Shown here piece by piece: positions 3,908 to 51,889 of a stretch of DNA of 64,000 nt. The DNA comes from Chloroflexota bacterium (GTDB lineage Bacteria > Chloroflexota > JAJPGV01). The notes beneath the pieces were generated by a model. It was not told where the DNA came from. It was given only the letters and a program-made list of their open reading frames with translations, and did not search any database. The DNA is taken from the NCBI GenBank assembly GCA_021325635.1, contig JAJPGV010000030.1:62001-126000 (forward strand). Reading direction: 5' to 3'. Position 1 is the first letter of the stretch. Each line of letters opens with the position of its first letter. Made by a program: the position numbers and the translations under genes.

Positions 3908-3940
3908 GACTTTGCCTAGAATCTAGCAGATAGCTATATG

Positions 3941-4047
3941 AGGGTTGAGGGTCCAGGGTTGAGGGTCGAGGGTTCAGGGCCAGGGCCAGGGCCAGGGCCA
4001 GGGCCAGGGCCAGGGCCAGGGCCAGGGCCAGGGTCGAGGGTCTAGGG
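3941..4047. repeat. Heptamer/hexamer tandem repeat tract A
   Basis: Starts as 7-base units of the type AGGGTTG, AGGGTCC and AGGGTCG, then collapses into about nine copies of the 6-base unit GGGCCA, and returns to GGGTCGA and GGGTCTA. It fills the space between the start of the XRE gene and the stop codon of the DUF402 gene, which it overlaps by a few bases. The heptamers are the reverse complement of those in tract C at 49986-50122. Confidence 0.9.
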
Positions 4048-4578
4048 TATGGGGGGTGGGGTGGGAGGTAGGTCCCAGAAGGGCTCGATGGCGCGTGGGG
4101 GGCCAATCCGGTCGAAGGGGGGCTGGCGGGTAAGGATCCAGCTGGTGACCTCGCGCAGTCCGGCGCGCGCCTGTTCGACGTCCGCCGGCGAGAGGTCGGC
4201 GCGGAGCAGATCCTCTTCGTCGAGCAGCACGAAGCGGCCGTCGGGAAAGACGAATAGGTCCAGCTCCATGTCTTCGAAGCGCAGCTGGTCGCCGTCCAGC
4301 TCTATTGGCCGGCAGATGTTGCAGTACCAGCCCTTGGTCCTGTGGTTGCGCTGGGATCGGATCTCCCAGATGCTGAACCAGCGCTGGGTGAAGTACGTTT
4401 CGACGAACAGGTCGCCGGGCTCGAACACCGTGTAACCCAGGAACAGGGGCTCGCTGCGCTCCCAGTGAGCGTGGACCAGGAGCTGCTGCTCATCCTGTTC
4501 GACGACCAGTCCCTGCCACGAAAAGATCACGCGGCGGTCGTGCCCCAGCTTGGAGATGGTGATCGTGCGGATGCGCAA
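4042..4578 (-). CDS. DUF402 domain protein
   Basis: A 178-residue protein. The middle third matches the DUF402 (FomD-like barrel) pattern: a GYTVFEPGD segment, a WF-x-I-W-E-I strand, GWYCNICRPIE, then DMELDLFVFPDG and VLLDEED. Relatives act as nucleotide-diphosphate phosphatases or have unknown roles, so no substrate can be named. The Pro-rich C-terminus is encoded where the repeat tract begins, which may have extended it. The gene is divergent from the cupin gene and shares an overlapping -10 region with it. Confidence 0.8.
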   Translation of the reverse strand: MRIRTITISKLGHDRRVIFSWQGLVVEQDEQQLLVHAHWERSEPLFLGYTVFEPGDLFVETYFTQRWFSIWEIRSQRNHRTKGWYCNICRPIELDGDQLRFEDMELDLFVFPDGRFVLLDEEDLLRADLSPADVEQARAGLREVTSWILTRQPPFDRIGPPRAIEPFWDLPPTPPPIP

Positions 4579-25546: not shown

Positions 25547-26169
25547 GGCGGGCTGTCGTCCGCGGGTGGCTGAGGAGCCGGCCGCGGCTGCATTCCAGGG
25601 GCCGTAGGCCGAGCGGGCGCCGCCGGAGCGGCCGGACGGGCTGCGCCTGTCCCCGGTCGTGGAGCCCCACCTGGCGCGGGAGGCCGTGCGCCTGGCGGTA
25701 GCGGTCGCGGTGCCCCAGGAGCGGCTGGAGCACCCGCTGGTCGCGGAGCCCCGGGAGCGGCTGGAGCGCCCGCTGGTCGCGGAGTTCCGGGAGCGGCCGG
25801 AGCGCCGGCTGGCCGTGGAGCGCCGGGTACGCCAGGCCGAGGAGCGCCGGGCGGCAGCGGTGGTCGTGGTGCCCCAGGAGCGGCTGGTCGTGGCGCGCCT
25901 GGCTGAGCCGGACGCGGCACGCCGGGTTGAGCCGGACGGGGTACCCCGGGGGCTGCTGGACGGGGAACCCCCGGCTGGGCCGGTCGCGGCACACCGGGCT
26001 GAGCCGGTCGCGGTGCCGCTGGGGCCGCCGCCGGAGCGGGACGCACTGGCGCGGGTGCGGCGGCGCGGGCGCCGGGTCGAGCCGGTGCCGCGCTGGCCTT
26101 TCGGCTATCTTCCAGCTTCCGGGCCTTGATGCGGTGCTTATTCAGCGCGACTTTGCGGGTTTTGTTCAT
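25537..26169 (-). CDS. Small basic protein with long Pro/Ala/Gly/Arg repeat tail
   Basis: A 210-residue protein in two parts. The first 26 residues are strongly basic and helical (MNKTRKVALNKHRIKARKLE), like the very short basic ribosome- or RNA-binding proteins of related bacteria. The rest is disordered, made of tandem 8-residue units PGVPRPAQ/PGVPRPAA and then 12-residue units of the type AGAPAAPGAPRP, ending in an acidic tip. It is not collagen (no strict G-x-x). The regular Arg spacing suggests RNA or polyanion binding or a condensate-forming tail. TATACT 11 bases upstream supports the start. Its end overlaps the ATPase gene by 10 bases. Confidence 0.7.
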   Translation of the reverse strand: MNKTRKVALNKHRIKARKLEDSRKASAAPARPGARAAAPAPVRPAPAAAPAAPRPAQPGVPRPAQPGVPRPAAPGVPRPAQPGVPRPAQPGAPRPAAPGAPRPPLPPGAPRPGVPGAPRPAGAPAAPGTPRPAGAPAAPGAPRPAGAPAAPGAPRPLPPGARPPAPGGAPRPGTGAARPAAPAAPARPTAPGMQPRPAPQPPADDSPPQE

Positions 26170-40487: not shown

Positions 40488-41478
40488 AGGTCGCCATCTC
40501 CGCCAGGATCTTCGCCGCGGCTTCGACGATAGACATGGCCAGCGCGGCGCCGGTGCCTTCGCCGAGGCGCAGGTCGAGTGACAGCAGTGGCAGCTGGCTC
40601 AGTCGGTTGAGCACGATGGCATGGCCAATCTCCACCGAGCGATGGGCCGCGAAGGTGTAATCCATGGCTGCGCCGCACAGCTCCGAGGCGATCAGCTGCC
40701 CGGCACCGGAGATGAAGCCGTCGACGATGACCGGCACGCGCCGCGACGCGGCGCCCAGGATAACGCCGGCGATCGCCCCTATCTCGAATCCGCCGACCTT
40801 GGCCAATATGTCGAGGGCGTCCTGCCTATCCGGTTGATTCACGCGCAGCGCCTGCTCGATGACTGCTACTTTGCGCTCGAACTGCTCGTCACTCACACCG
40901 GTCCCGCGGCCCGTCACCTGCCGCACCGGATGGCCGGTGATCGCCGCCACCACCGCGCTGCTGGCAGTGGTGTTGCCGATGCCCATGTCTCCGGTTGCCA
41001 GAAGCGTGGCTCCCCCGTCGATCTCCTCGCAGGCGGCCGCGACGCCGCGTTCGACGCAGTCCCGCGCCTGTTCCGGTGTCATTGCCGCCCCGTGGGCGAA
41101 GTTGGCGGTGGGCCTGCCCACGCCCATGTCCACGACTCGTACCTCAGCGCCCACGTGGCGTGCCAGGACGTTGATCGCGGCTCCGCCGGCATCGAAGTTG
41201 GCCACCATCTGCGGCGTCACCTCGGCCGGGTAGGCCGAGACGCCTTCCGCCGTCACGCCGTGGTCGGCGGCCATGACGATGATCACCTTACGGCCAATTC
41301 GCGGGATTCGCTGCCCGGTGATCCCGGCCAGCCGGATGCTGATCTCCTCCAGCCGGCCGAGCGCTCCCTGCGGCTTGGTCAAGATGTCCTGCCGGGCCCG
41401 CGCGGCCTCCATGGCGCCCTGATCGAGCGGCCGAATGCCCGCGATGGTTTCCGCTATCGAGATGCTCACGGCTGCCAT
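40426..41478 (-). CDS. cobT: Nicotinate-nucleotide:dimethylbenzimidazole phosphoribosyltransferase
   Basis: Activates the lower-ligand base to its riboside phosphate. Diagnostic segments: TKPQGALGRLEEISIRLAG, VMAADHGVTAEGVSAYP, GGAAINVLARHVGAEV, LATGDMGIGNTTASSAVV and a C-terminal LRLGEGTGAALAMSIVEAA with the catalytic Glu. The length of 350 residues is normal. It is the first gene of a nine-gene operon in which all neighbours overlap. Only 41 bases separate it from the divergent antitoxin gene, so there is no room for a B12 riboswitch. Confidence 0.97.
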   Translation of the reverse strand: MAAVSISIAETIAGIRPLDQGAMEAARARQDILTKPQGALGRLEEISIRLAGITGQRIPRIGRKVIIVMAADHGVTAEGVSAYPAEVTPQMVANFDAGGAAINVLARHVGAEVRVVDMGVGRPTANFAHGAAMTPEQARDCVERGVAAACEEIDGGATLLATGDMGIGNTTASSAVVAAITGHPVRQVTGRGTGVSDEQFERKVAVIEQALRVNQPDRQDALDILAKVGGFEIGAIAGVILGAASRRVPVIVDGFISGAGQLIASELCGAAMDYTFAAHRSVEIGHAIVLNRLSQLPLLSLDLRLGEGTGAALAMSIVEAAAKILAEMATFGDAGVSEALDKQAESGATS

Positions 41479-41497
41479 TGTCGCATCAGCCGCGGTG

Positions 41498-41519
41498 CCC
41501 TATAGGCTACCCTATATCA
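41498..41519. promoter_or_regulatory. Direct-repeat promoter region of the VapBC pair
   Basis: CCCTATA occurs twice with a 5-base gap between copies. TACCCT at 41508-41513 stands 6 bases before the GTG at 41520 and may be a -10 box. Such repeats often bind the antitoxin itself. The same DNA would include part of the promoter of divergent cobT. Confidence 0.4.
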
Positions 41520-41801
41520 GTGAAGAAGACGAGTGTCTACCTGAACAATGAAGAGCTTGTGGCACTCAAGCGTGTCGCGGAGCGGGAACACCGATCCCAG
41601 GCGGAGGTCGTACGGGAGGCGATCCTGCAATACGCTCGGCAGTCACCCGACCGCGATTTCGCACTCGCCCGAAATAGCGAATTTGCTCCACGCGCCGCGG
41701 GGGCGCCGCGATTCATCGAGGAGATCCCCGAGGCAGAGCTCATGGCCGGCTTCGGCGCGGATTCGTTCGGAGCCGAGCCCGCGGGCAAACCGCCGGCGTG
41801 A
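41520..41801 (+). CDS. Ribbon-helix-helix antitoxin (VapB-like)
   Basis: A 93-residue protein with an N-terminal ribbon-helix-helix domain (KKTSVYLNNEELVALKRVAE, then RSQAEVVREAILQY), the DNA-binding part of CopG-type antitoxins. The Pro/Gly-rich C-terminus probably wraps the toxin. The GTG at 41520 gives the family's compact start; an ATG at 41478 in frame would overlap the cobT start. It overlaps the toxin gene by 4 bases (GTGA). Confidence 0.85.
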   Translation: MKKTSVYLNNEELVALKRVAEREHRSQAEVVREAILQYARQSPDRDFALARNSEFAPRAAGAPRFIEEIPEAELMAGFGADSFGAEPAGKPPA

Positions 41802-42226
41802 GCCTCGTCGTCGATACTGCTCCCCTGGTCGTACTCGGTACGCCGGACCATCCACAGCGGGCGGCTGTGACGGCGCTCCTGCAGGCCGAGCCTGGCGACC
41901 TCGTAATCACCGGGCAGGTCACCGCGGAAGTCGACTATCTGCTGTCCGAGCGAGTCGGCACCGCTGCCCGGCGCCGTTTTCTCGACGATCTTGTGGCCGG
42001 CCGGTTTACGTTCTTTTGTCTAGAACCGTCCGACTATGAGCTGGCACGGACCTTCGACCGGCAGTATGCCGGGCTGAACCTGGGGTTGGCCGATCTATCC
42101 ATCGTGGTTGCCGCCTTCCGGACTGGGACAAGGCGCATCTTGACGTACGATCAGCGGCATTTCCGCGCCATACGTCCGCTGGATGGCGGCAGCTACGTTA
42201 TTCTCCCCGCCGACGGGCCCGGCTGA
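41798..42226 (+). CDS. vapC: PIN-domain toxin (VapC-like)
   Basis: A 142-residue PIN-domain ribonuclease. The acidic active-site residues are visible as VVDTAPLV (first Asp), TAEVDYLL (Glu), LGLADLSIVVAA (Asp) and LTYDQRHF (last Asp). VapC toxins cut tRNA or rRNA when the antitoxin is lost. It follows the ribbon-helix-helix gene with a GTGA overlap, the classic toxin-antitoxin arrangement. Confidence 0.88.
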   Translation: MSLVVDTAPLVVLGTPDHPQRAAVTALLQAEPGDLVITGQVTAEVDYLLSERVGTAARRRFLDDLVAGRFTFFCLEPSDYELARTFDRQYAGLNLGLADLSIVVAAFRTGTRRILTYDQRHFRAIRPLDGGSYVILPADGPG

Positions 42227-42264: not shown

Positions 42265-43812
42265 CTATACGCCGGCCGGCGCCTTCGCTCGCAGGTCCTT
42301 GCGTGAGGCCACGATCTTGTTGAGCGCGTTAACGTAGGCCTGCGCGCTGGCGATCAAGATGTCGGTGTCGGCGCCGCGGCCGATGAACTGCTCGTTCTGG
42401 CTCTCCACCCGGATCGTCACGTTGGCCACCGCGTCGATGCCCTCGGTCACGGACTGGACGGTGTACTCGGTGAGCTTGTTCGGAACCCCGACGACCTTGT
42501 TGATGGCCTTGTAGGTGGCGTCGACCGGGCCGGTGCCGATGGCCGACTCGGTCATCTCCTGGCCGTCCGCGTTCACCAGGCGCACTGAGGCTGTAGGCAT
42601 GCCGTTGGGGAATGCGGTGTTGATGTTGACCGCCTGCAGGCGGATGGCCTCGTGGGCAATGCGCATCTCGTCGCTGACGATGGCCTCCAGGTCGAGGTCA
42701 CCGACCTCCTTCTTCTTGTCGGCGACGTCGAGGAAGCGCTCCCATGCCTTGTCCAGATCCTTGCCGGTCAGGACGAAGCCCAGCTTCTCGAGCCGGTGCT
42801 GGAACGCGTGGCGGCCCGAACGCGCGGTGAGGACGATGTTGCTTTCGACCCAGCCCACCTCTTCGGGCGTCATGATCTCGTAGTTCAGCCGGTCCTTCAG
42901 CACGCCGTCCTGGTGGATGCCCGAAGCATGGGCGAACGCGTTGGCGCCGACGACGGCCTTGTTGGCCTGCACCGGCATGGACATCAGCGTGCTCACCAGC
43001 CGGCTGGTCTGAACCAGCTGCGTCGAATCGACGCCGGTCTCGTAGCCATAGGCGTGCAGCCGCTTCTTGATGGTCATGACGATCTCTTCGAGCGAGGCAT
43101 TTCCGGCGCGCTCGCCGATGCCGTTGATGGTGCACTCGATGCGGCGGGCGCCGTTCATCACCGCGGCGATGCTGTTGGCCACAGCGTTCCCCAGGTCGTT
43201 GTGGCAGTGCACAGAGATGGTGGCATCGTTGGCGTTGGGCACGAACTTGAACACGTTGGCGATCAGCTCACCCCATTCCTGGGGCAGGACGTAGCCCGTG
43301 GTGTCCGGGATGTTGATGACCGTGGCGCCGGCCTTGATCATCTCGTGGATGGTCTCGTACAGGTACTCAGGATCGGCGCGGCCGGCGTCTTCGGGCGAAT
43401 ACTCGACCTCATCGCAGTAGCGCTTGGCGTACTGCACCGCCCTGATGCCCTGCTGCAGCACCTCCGCGCGCGTCTTCTTCAGCTTTCGTTCGATGTGGAT
43501 GTCCGAGACGGATAGGACGATGTGGATCTGCTTCTTCTCGGCGTCCTTGACCGCCTCCCAGACGGCGTCGATGTCTTTCTCCACGGCCCGGCCCAGGCCG
43601 GTGATCGTTGGCCCCTTGACCTGCCGGGCGATGGTCTGCACCGCCTGGAAATCGCCTGGCGATGAAATGGGGAAGCCTGCTTCGATAACGTCCACGCCCA
43701 GCCGGGCAAGCTGGTGGGCAATCTCGATCTTCTCGGGATAGGTAAGGGAGCAGCCGGGTGACTGCTCGCCGTCCCGCAGCGTGGTGTCGAAGATCGCGAT
43801 GTGCTGAGCCAT
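42265..43812 (-). CDS. leuA: 2-isopropylmalate synthase
   Basis: First enzyme of leucine synthesis (acetyl-CoA plus 2-ketoisovalerate). The HMGL-like barrel has [12 protein letters not shown], the metal-binding [15 protein letters not shown] and [14 protein letters not shown]. The C-terminal regulatory domain, which binds leucine, starts about residue 390. The length of 515 residues is normal. Start ATG at 43812 follows AGGAGG. It lies downstream of ilvB-ilvN-ilvC in the same direction, but a 314-base repeat tract separates it from ilvC. Confidence 0.97.
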
Positions 43813-43831
43813 TCTGCTTGCCTCCTGAGTG

Positions 43832-44145
43832 GTCGTTAGACGCTAGTCGTTAGACGCTAGGCGCTAGGCGCTAGGCGCTAGGCGCTAGGCGCTAGGCGCT
43901 GGTCGCTGGTCGCTGGTCGCTGGTGGCCAGGCGCGAGTCGCTGGTCGCTGGTCGCAGGCGCGAGACGTTGGTCGCCAGGCGCTGGTCGCTGGGCGTGAGG
44001 CGCGAGACGCTGGTCGCCAGGCGCTGGTCGCTGGGCGTGAGGCGCGAGGCGTTGGTCGCCAGGCGCTGGTCGCTGGGCGTGAGGCGCGAGGCGCCCGCCG
44101 CTGGCACTCTTCACTCTTCACTCTTCACTCTTCACTCTTCACTCC
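43832..44145. repeat. Heptamer repeat tract B with 42-base higher-order units
   Basis: Composed almost entirely of 7-base units. It begins with GTCGTTA and GACGCTA alternating, then GGCGCTA repeated, then GTCGCTG repeated. Three tandem 42-base units follow (43967-44008, 44009-44050, 44051-44092), each of six different heptamers (GTTGGTC, GCCAGGC, GCTGGTC, GCTGGGC, GTGAGGC, GCGAGAC or close variants). The last part is five copies of ACTCTTC (44106-44140), stopping 5 bases from the ilvC stop codon. Confidence 0.95.
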
Positions 44146-45165
<1,020 letters not shown>

Positions 45166-49985: not shown

Positions 49986-50122
49986 CCCCCTCGACCTTGA
50001 CCCCTCAACCCTAACCCTCACCCCCTCAACCCTCGACCCTAAACCCTCAACCCTCGCCCCTCAACCCTCGCCCCTCGACCCTCAACCCTGACCCTCAACC
50101 CTCAACCCTCAACCCTCGCCCC
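49986..50122. repeat. Heptamer repeat tract C
   Basis: About twenty 7-base units of CCCTCAA, CCCTCGA, CCCTCGC and close variants (CCCTAAA, CCCTGAC), filling the space between the stop codons of the RpiB-like gene and the glycosidase gene. The units are the reverse complement of those in tract A at 3941-4047. Confidence 0.95.
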
Positions 50123-51889
50123 TCACTTCCCCATGTTCTCCAGCGCGACATAGGCCGGGCGCGGCGAATAGTCGGACCGGACCACGCCGAAGCCCCACTT
50201 CTCGTCGGTTGGCGGCACTACGGCCTGGAAATTGAGATTCCACACAAACATCACGCCCATCCACGGCCAGTTGGCCTTGACGTAGTTGAACTCGCGCACC
50301 AGGTAGTCGGCCTGCTGCTGCTCGGTGATGGTGCGGGCGTACTCGTACCCGGCTGGGGCCTGGGGATTCGAGTCATAGCCGGTCTCCGTGGCCCAAATCG
50401 GTTTGCTGCCGTCGCCCACCTGTGCCATGAGGCCGTGGTAGTCCTCCGCCCGCCGGAAGAAGAAGCTGGGGTGATTGGAGAAGTTGGGCTGGGTGTGATT
50501 GGCCACGGTCTGCTCCGGCGGGTTGCCGTAGCCCTGGGGGTGGGCGCCCAGCACGTCGAAGAACTGCTTCACCACCCCGTTCTGGTAGGCGTACATGTTG
50601 GACAGGTAGGTCAGGTCGTCCATGGCGATGTTGGGATCGTTCACGCCGGTTGGCGTAGGCGCTCCCGATACGACGATGGCTGAGGGGTCTGCCGCCTTGA
50701 TTGCCGGATAAACCGCCCGCAGCAGCTCCACGAAGCTGCCGGCGTTGATGTTGCCGGGTCCCACCTCGCGGGCGAAGTTCTCCTCGTTCCAGACTTCGTA
50801 AGCTTCCACTCGGCCTTTGAACTTGGAGGCCATGGCGGAGAAGAAGGCGGCCGCATCGGCCGGGTTCTGCGGGAATTCGCCATTTGCGACCGCTGCCCAG
50901 GAGGGGGCGCACACCACGCTGAAGAGCACGTCCATGCCGCCCGCAGCGGCGTCGCTGGCCATCCTATCCAGCTCGGTCCAATCGGGCGGCTTGGTCTTGT
51001 CTGGCTGCACGTCGCACCAGCGCACCTGCTGCCGCAGCCAGCGGAAGCCAGCGTCCTGCGTGCCGGCGATCGCCTGGGCCTCCTGCCCGCCCACGACCTG
51101 CGCCCCGAAGCCGTACTGTAGGCCGGTCGTGCTCGGCGCGGGCGGCGGAACGGCCACCGGGGCGGCGGTCGGCGTGCTGGCGTCCTGCGGGTAGAAGTTC
51201 AGCGACTTGGCGATGTCCGATCCCAGCACCAGGACGAGTTGGCCGGCCTTGATACCGGCCGGGCCATCCACCTTCCACAGCTGGAACGCGACGCGTTGGA
51301 GGCGAATGGTCAGGAATGGCCCGAAGTCGGTGATGTGCGACGTCGGCAGCCCGAAATGGTCGATGTGAAACGGGTCGGCGAAGTAGAAGTTCTTGAAGGC
51401 GGGGTTGGGGAAATCCAGCCAGGCCTGGCGCAGCGCCGCTACCTGGTCGAAGGTCATGCCCTTTTCGGCTGCGGAGTTATCGATCTGCGGTGGGATCTGA
51501 TAGGTGGCTTGCAGCACCGGGTCGAGGTTGGCATCGTGCAGCCGGTCGAAGATGTTCACGAAGGCCATGGTCTGCGTGTCGGGCCGCCATTGCAGGAGCA
51601 CCCGCTGGGTGCCCTGCACCACGAAGCCGTCGAGCACGAACCGCCCGGTATTGGGATAGCCCAGCAGGCTGGTTGCACCGTAACGCTGGAACCAGGTCCA
51701 CACCGGCACCCCGGCGCCGTCGGTCACGGCAAACCCGGCGCCGCTCACGCCTCCGTTAGCCTGTGTGTAGAAGCGTCCGCCGGCGATCTGGAAGTCGGCC
51801 GTGATGATTTGGGCGCTGGCCTGAGCGACGCCGCCCAGGCTGACCAGCAGGGCGAGAAGGATGGCAAGAGGAATCTGGCGGTGTTTCAT
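50123..51889 (-). CDS. Secreted clan GH-A-like glycoside hydrolase
   Basis: A 588-residue exported protein. The signal peptide (IPLAILLALLVSLGGVAQASA) is followed by a module with FQRYGATSLLGYPNTGRF and FVNIFDRLHDANLDP, a type repeatedly found in Chloroflexota exported proteins. The C-terminal catalytic barrel (about residues 250-585) has YEVWNEENFA, with the probable acid/base Glu, and WATETGYDS, with the probable nucleophile Glu. That pairing is the clan A arrangement; the family (GH5, GH39 or other) cannot be fixed by eye. The ATG at 51889 is chosen because it begins the signal peptide. Confidence 0.85.
   Translation of the reverse strand: MKHRQIPLAILLALLVSLGGVAQASAQIITADFQIAGGRFYTQANGGVSGAGFAVTDGAGVPVWTWFQRYGATSLLGYPNTGRFVLDGFVVQGTQRVLLQWRPDTQTMAFVNIFDRLHDANLDPVLQATYQIPPQIDNSAAEKGMTFDQVAALRQAWLDFPNPAFKNFYFADPFHIDHFGLPTSHITDFGPFLTIRLQRVAFQLWKVDGPAGIKAGQLVLVLGSDIAKSLNFYPQDASTPTAAPVAVPPPAPSTTGLQYGFGAQVVGGQEAQAIAGTQDAGFRWLRQQVRWCDVQPDKTKPPDWTELDRMASDAAAGGMDVLFSVVCAPSWAAVANGEFPQNPADAAAFFSAMASKFKGRVEAYEVWNEENFAREVGPGNINAGSFVELLRAVYPAIKAADPSAIVVSGAPTPTGVNDPNIAMDDLTYLSNMYAYQNGVVKQFFDVLGAHPQGYGNPPEQTVANHTQPNFSNHPSFFFRRAEDYHGLMAQVGDGSKPIWATETGYDSNPQAPAGYEYARTITEQQQADYLVREFNYVKANWPWMGVMFVWNLNFQAVVPPTDEKWGFGVVRSDYSPRPAYVALENMGK

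Follow-up and report, generated by a model that had tools for sequence, protein, structure and literature searches.

The heptamer tract between ilvC and leuA is one member of a dispersed class of strand-polar 7-bp arrays

The stretch of DNA analysed here (the window; 64,000 bases, contig C53:62001-126000) belongs to a 4.64-Mb genome assembled in 63 contigs (designated G000) and contains the genes ilvC and leuA, which are separated by a gap of 333 bp consisting almost entirely of heptamers (Table 1). Read along the minus strand, the TAG stop codon of ilvC is followed by GG, five copies of AGTGAAG, one AGTGCCA, one GCGGCGG, and about 37 variants of RCGMCYN, and this last run stops 5 bases short of an AGGAGG motif; the 7-bp frame of the spacer is broken once, by a single base. 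The identity of the spacer at lag 7 is 0.71, compared to 0.29 ± 0.02 (maximum 0.37) for shuffled sequences, and Tandem Repeats Finder (TRF) reports a period of 7 both at 43837-44094 (37 copies) and at 44105-44144 (5.7 copies, 100 % match), which confirms the initial annotation of this space as being built of 7-base units that change family. Five ACTCTTC units had been described as reaching right up to the ilvC stop; the run is present, but ends 2 bases before the stop codon. Likewise, the proposed switch to an unrelated unit is correct insofar as two units are present, but is better read as the junction of two facing arms, the spacer apparently being a head-to-head pair of an arm of family F3 on the leuA side and an arm of family F1 on the ilvC side. 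A coding function of the tract was rejected, as the overlapping open reading frames of 71-80 amino acids found in several frames are the mechanical outcome of an open 7-mer array.

Table 1 Features of the ilvC-leuA locus and further heptamer tracts in the window
Feature	Position	Strand	Basis and remarks
leuA, 2-isopropylmalate synthase	42265..43812	-	PF00682 + PF08502
AGGAGG, likely leuA ribosome-binding site	43821..43826	-	Sequence; intact, 5 bases outside the tract
F3 heptamer arm, leuA side, ~37 units	43832..44094	-	RCGMCYN on -, NRGNCGC on +; TRF and parse; family recurs at many loci
42-bp higher-order repeat, six heptamers (five distinct), 3.9 copies, 92 % match	43932..44094	-	Inside the F3 arm; TRF period 42
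Putative junction of the two arms	44095..44104	.	Sequence
F1 heptamer arm, AGTGAAG x5.7 on the minus strand	44105..44144	-	Begins 2 bases past the ilvC stop codon
ilvC, ketol-acid reductoisomerase	44146..45150	-	PF07991 + PF01450
F2 tract (GAGGGTY) with inserted perfect hexamer array CAGGGC x9.8	3937..4065	+	TRF; hexamers at 3975-4033
F2 tract (CCCTCAA on +)	49987..50132	-	Fills the spacer between convergent genes

Within the F3 arm, the heptamers ACGCCTC, GCGCCTC, ACGCCCA, GCGACCA, GCGCCTG, and GCGACCA form a 42-bp block, whose order is real, since permutation of the heptamers within the block reached the observed lag-42 identity in only 2 of 5000 trials. This block had been reported as six different heptamers repeated three times; the block stands, but only five of its heptamers are distinct and all are RCGMCYN variants. 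Blocks with lengths that are multiples of 7 occur at further loci of the same genome (42 bp on contig C9, 49 bp on contig C15). The likeness to eukaryotic satellites noted previously is a descriptive one: repeat blocks of 35, 42, and 49 bp are found at other loci too, and the copy number of the 35-bp block differs between sister species. A literature search revealed no combination of a bacterial heptamer with a higher-order repeat.

The genome-wide occurrence of such tracts was analysed in a 1.12-Mb sample of this genome, partly picked around ACTCTTC matches; a tract was counted when its lag identity over 28 bp was 75 % or higher, and gene borders were taken from a simple codon-usage caller, which is a non-standard annotator. 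Intergenic tracts numbered 46 at lag 7 versus 0-3 at lags 4, 5, 6, 8, and 9, and versus 0.2 in shuffled sequence, whereas coding lag-7 tracts numbered 6; a 400-kb stretch of contig C50 taken alone contained 4 intergenic tracts. Three families were distinguished which often co-occur in one spacer: F1 (AGTGAAG/ACTCTTC; 58 three-unit matches, 0 in a backward control), F2 (GAGGGTY/CCCTCRA), and F3 (NRGNCGC/GCGNCYN; 298 four-unit matches versus 9 in the control). Clustering of units at up to 2 mismatches was dropped because the strands of GC-rich units became mixed. F1 arrays start at gene ends, and some of them provide the TGA stop codon of the preceding gene, with products ending, for example, in ARSLRSQ or VKSEE. 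On contigs C51 and C44, F1 arrays and GGTCGCTGCGCTCCC units flank consecutive spacers, and gene ends enter them (SLRSQ and VKSEE before the stop). The perfect hexamer array inside one of the F2 tracts (Table 1) indicates that 7 is strongly preferred rather than absolute. The idea that the process depends on length rather than sequence is therefore to be kept in part only: a 7-bp step acts on unrelated units, but the families obey a sequence polarity (see below) and the hexamer array exists. The position of the hexamers inside an F2 tract also illustrates how a 6-bp array can be seeded by the loss of one base. At 25703-26013 of the window, tandem repeats of 36 and 24 bp, i.e. multiples of 3, probably lie within coding sequence.

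All relatives used for comparison share only the phylum with this genome; a Tepidiforma sequence among the better IlvC matches suggests that this may be Chloroflexota. In G033, 32 lag-7 tracts were detected in 180 kb versus 0-1 at the other lags from 4 to 12, and in G060, 38 lag-7 tracts in 120 kb; the units are unrelated in both cases. The ilvC-leuA tract thus has counterparts at many places in this genome and in other genomes of the phylum. Tabulated on these samples, period 7 dominates intergenic DNA here and in other genomes of the phylum, which bears out the excess proposed in the initial annotation. G012, which belongs to the genus of G060, had no lag-7 tract in 140 kb. Lag 7 also leads, though mildly (18 versus 5-10), in 656 kb of ilvC surroundings sampled across diverse phyla. 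A contig of the cyanobacterium Microcoleus (L097:5001-5183) carries an inverted TAGATTT heptamer pair which starts 20 bases past ilvC and has its G>C strand first. The repeat GGTCGCTKCGCTCC was rejected as a phylum-wide element, since its 31 copies here compare with 0-3 elsewhere, about the level of the backward control there. An assembly artefact of the metagenomic bin might be suspected from the 63 contigs, of which C6, C8, and C9 begin or finish in F3 arrays, so that array lengths may be wrong; the families, however, are found at dozens of independent loci, and tracts of this kind are also present in other genomes, in some cases on contigs at least hundreds of kb long, which makes an artefact extremely unlikely.

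The adjacency of the two genes is kept at 26 of 29 loci of the same phylum. The corresponding gaps of ~19-373 bp hold very different spacers, mostly without heptamers, and the spacer of G060 carries an unrelated heptamer pair of its own (GATTGCA..TGCAATC). The position of the tract within a conserved gene pair and the strong folding of same-family pairs at other loci could be taken to suggest a local regulatory role, i.e. an attenuator, terminator, or mRNA-stability element of ilvC/leuA. Such a role is, however, very improbable in view of the mostly heptamer-free gaps of the other genomes and of the fold of the tract, which is worse than that of shuffled sequences (z=+2.15); no promoter- or terminator-like site and no Rfam match was found in the tract. 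Some F1 pairs elsewhere in the genome form strong RNA folds (z -5 to -15), and this folding, together with the stop codons supplied to genes, suggests that individual members of the class may be functional.

The turnover of the arrays can be followed in the genus g29 (genomes G033, G042, G101, G109, and G077), where two spacers within one locus of ~4 kb with flanks of 86-96 % identity were compared. Copy number in the class varies between these close relatives: at one array, G101 and G109 differ in length by exactly one 7-bp unit, and a higher-order block of 35 bp has two copies in G033 but three in G042. One of the two spacers has GATGAAG-type arms in G033, G042, and G077 and AGTCAGAAGGCAAA-type arms in G101 and G109; both arms were swapped together, the exchange starting at the stop codon of the left gene and ending ~12 bases ahead of the next start codon. 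The flanks group G033, G042, and G101 against G109 and G077, so that simple descent does not account for the pattern. The joint exchange of both arms would fit a mobile inverted-repeat module, a MITE- or REP/BIME-like element moved by a transposase, with the arms as its ends and the heptamers as its terminal repeats; it would also fit that inverted pairs adjoin hairpins or GGTCGCTKCGCTCCC and that the genome contains one Y1-transposase-like gene (Y1_Tnp match, E=4e-7). The interior between the arms is, however, unconserved, the ilvC-leuA spacer and others combine arms from different families, neither a target duplication nor an empty site was seen in the two spacers of the one locus compared, and no link of such repeats to mobile elements was seen by Rehm et al. 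(2015; PMC4692102). A mobile module is considered improbable. The Y1-transposase-like frame (L171, G000:C46:17504) is possibly frameshifted and directly follows ribosomal protein genes; a GGGGCCTTGCGCCCC repeat close to it recurs in inverted orientation ~550 bp further along. REP/BIME elements are palindromes tagged with GTAG or CGTC (PMC3733652), 20-40 bp in length and accompanied by a RAYT (Y1) transposase. They resemble the tracts described here in being intergenic, arranged as inverted pairs, and associated with hairpins, but in the present tracts it is the repeat that is tandem, and the adjoining hairpins vary by locus.

A striking property of the class is its strand polarity. The G-rich strand runs away from the gene at either side of a spacer, whatever the orientation of the genes, with counts of 29 and 0 against 2 and 24 in this genome (p=1.3e-13); in terms of the plus strand, the G-rich strand of a family lies at the left and its complement at the right of each spacer. 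The two exceptions are an array in mid-position and a spacer in which the gene caller apparently missed a gene. Arrays occupying whole spacers contribute little to this count, and F1, which does not fill spacers, gives 16, 0, 0, and 12. The same polarity was found in G033 with unrelated units (10 and 0 against 2 and 17, p=3e-6). An overall intergenic skew was dismissed as its source, because spacers without arrays have no skew of this kind. Inverted pairs of one family numbered 25 (14 from this genome, 2 from G033, 8 from G060, and 1 from the Microcoleus contig, adjoining ilvC); the G>C strand forms the 5' arm in 24 of them, and the remaining pair is a tie. The ilvC-leuA tract conforms in having a G-rich left and a C-rich right arm on the plus strand. 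For the G-rich heptamers GGGAATC of Xanthomonas and GGGGA(C/T)T of Nostoc, which form quadruplexes, it was reported that, of the two adjacent ORFs, they lie closer to the one on their 5' side, as read along the G-rich strand, irrespective of ORF orientation (Rehm et al. 2015; PMC4692102). The F1 and F3 units of the ilvC-leuA spacer lack regular GGG runs, of which such quadruplexes need four; of the three families, only F2, elsewhere in the genome, has GGG. The polarity is thus seen in units unable to form quadruplexes, in a different phylum, and in several families unrelated to each other, so that these structures cannot be the general reason for it.

The polarity requires a directional process, which could be either the growth or folding back of G-rich 3' ends or a gene-relative selection that removes the other orientation. 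According to the latter explanation, arrays arise in either orientation and the survivors are C-rich upstream of genes, where false ribosome sites and stops are avoided, and G-rich downstream, where stop codons and structure at the mRNA end are provided. The counts for this genome and for G033 can be expressed in these terms, and F1 arrays do start where genes end and can provide their TGA stops. On the other hand, convergent spacers, which hold no start codon, are as strict as divergent ones, and the order is retained in several inverted pairs with both arms distinctly closer to one gene, at C56p97001:10467-10537 and in two pairs of G060 (spacers of 512 and 169 bp). Gene-relative selection is considered unlikely, and convergent spacers and off-centre pairs, although a small sample, favour a 3'-end process over it.

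Taken together, the tract probably represents head-to-head heptamer arms of the class which change in length by slippage or unequal exchange of 7-bp units or blocks, grow directionally, and have no function for either of the two genes. There is good support for growth in 7-bp steps: the units are unrelated (three families here, others in sister lineages) and nearly all have period 7, which argues for a 7-bp step acting across sequences. Arms would gain or lose 7 bp or whole blocks of a multiple of 7 by replication slippage or unequal exchange, and such block-wise changes in length would also have produced the 42-bp higher-order repeat. The G-rich strand would extend from 5' to 3' away from each gene, and we infer that it is the 3' ends on this strand that slip, extend, or fold back. 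With no dedicated role for the two genes, the tract would be tolerated because it starts past the stop codon of ilvC and ends before the ribosome-binding site of leuA. Slippage alone leaves unexplained the polarity, the usual pairing of arms of one family, and the joint exchange of arms in g29. As a further process, directional end-extension in bacteria of this phylum might add G-rich heptamers to 3' DNA ends at breaks or stalls in intergenic DNA, with no reverse transcriptase involved, the ends then being joined head to head as in fused telomeres; it is a slender possibility which, if true, would explain why the arrays are polar, why each spacer has a single junction, why families are mixed, and why the step is fixed at 7. 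Telomerase- or retron-like synthesis was discarded, as no RVT_1 match was found in this 96%-complete genome, and so was Ku-dependent end joining as a general cause of the head-to-head arrangement, as Ku is present here and absent from the tract-bearing genomes G033, G060, and G064.

According to work cited by Rehm et al. (PMC4692102), reports that heptamers are over-represented in bacterial genomes date back to 2007; neither a function nor a mechanism was shown, and a DNA polymerase footprint and quadruplex structure have been suggested as explanations. The heptamer excess and the polarity of quadruplex-forming heptamers are thus already published; new are the polarity of non-quadruplex units, the occurrence of several families and of mixed spacers, and the swapping of families at fixed gene boundaries between sister species. 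The heptamers of Rehm et al. share with the present tracts the 7-bp unit, the intergenic position, the dispersion over the genome, the variable copy number, and the polarity rule, but they contain GGG, whereas F1 has no GG and F3 no regular G triplets and both are nevertheless polar, and here three families occur in one genome and even in one spacer. The STRR heptamers of heterocystous cyanobacteria (Calothrix) are, as cited in PMC4692102, tandem and intergenic with several units per genome; the similarity to them pointed out earlier applies to the kind of repeat rather than to its sequence. For Chloroflexus aurantiacus, which probably belongs to the same phylum as the window, 22 satellites derived from one heptamer, (GATAGRA)n, were described (PMC6749651). 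These are likewise scattered and heptamer-derived but have a single unit of unrelated sequence, and the part of that report considered here describes neither polarity nor inverted pairing. The TAACTGA direct repeats of Beggiatoaceae (PMC4679880) are, like the tracts here, intergenic heptamer repeats at many loci with a position relative to genes; they differ in having one fixed unit in 2-6 copies, mostly just upstream of start codons, and were proposed to be sites for a translational regulator. The sister species with different families between the same genes and the contrast between G060, which is rich in tracts, and G012, which has none in its 140 kb, constitute a natural experiment for finding the responsible genes. 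Beside leuA, at 41478-42226 of the window, two overlapping plus-strand ORFs have, as judged by eye, a VapBC-type appearance (ribbon-helix-helix-like, then PIN-like).
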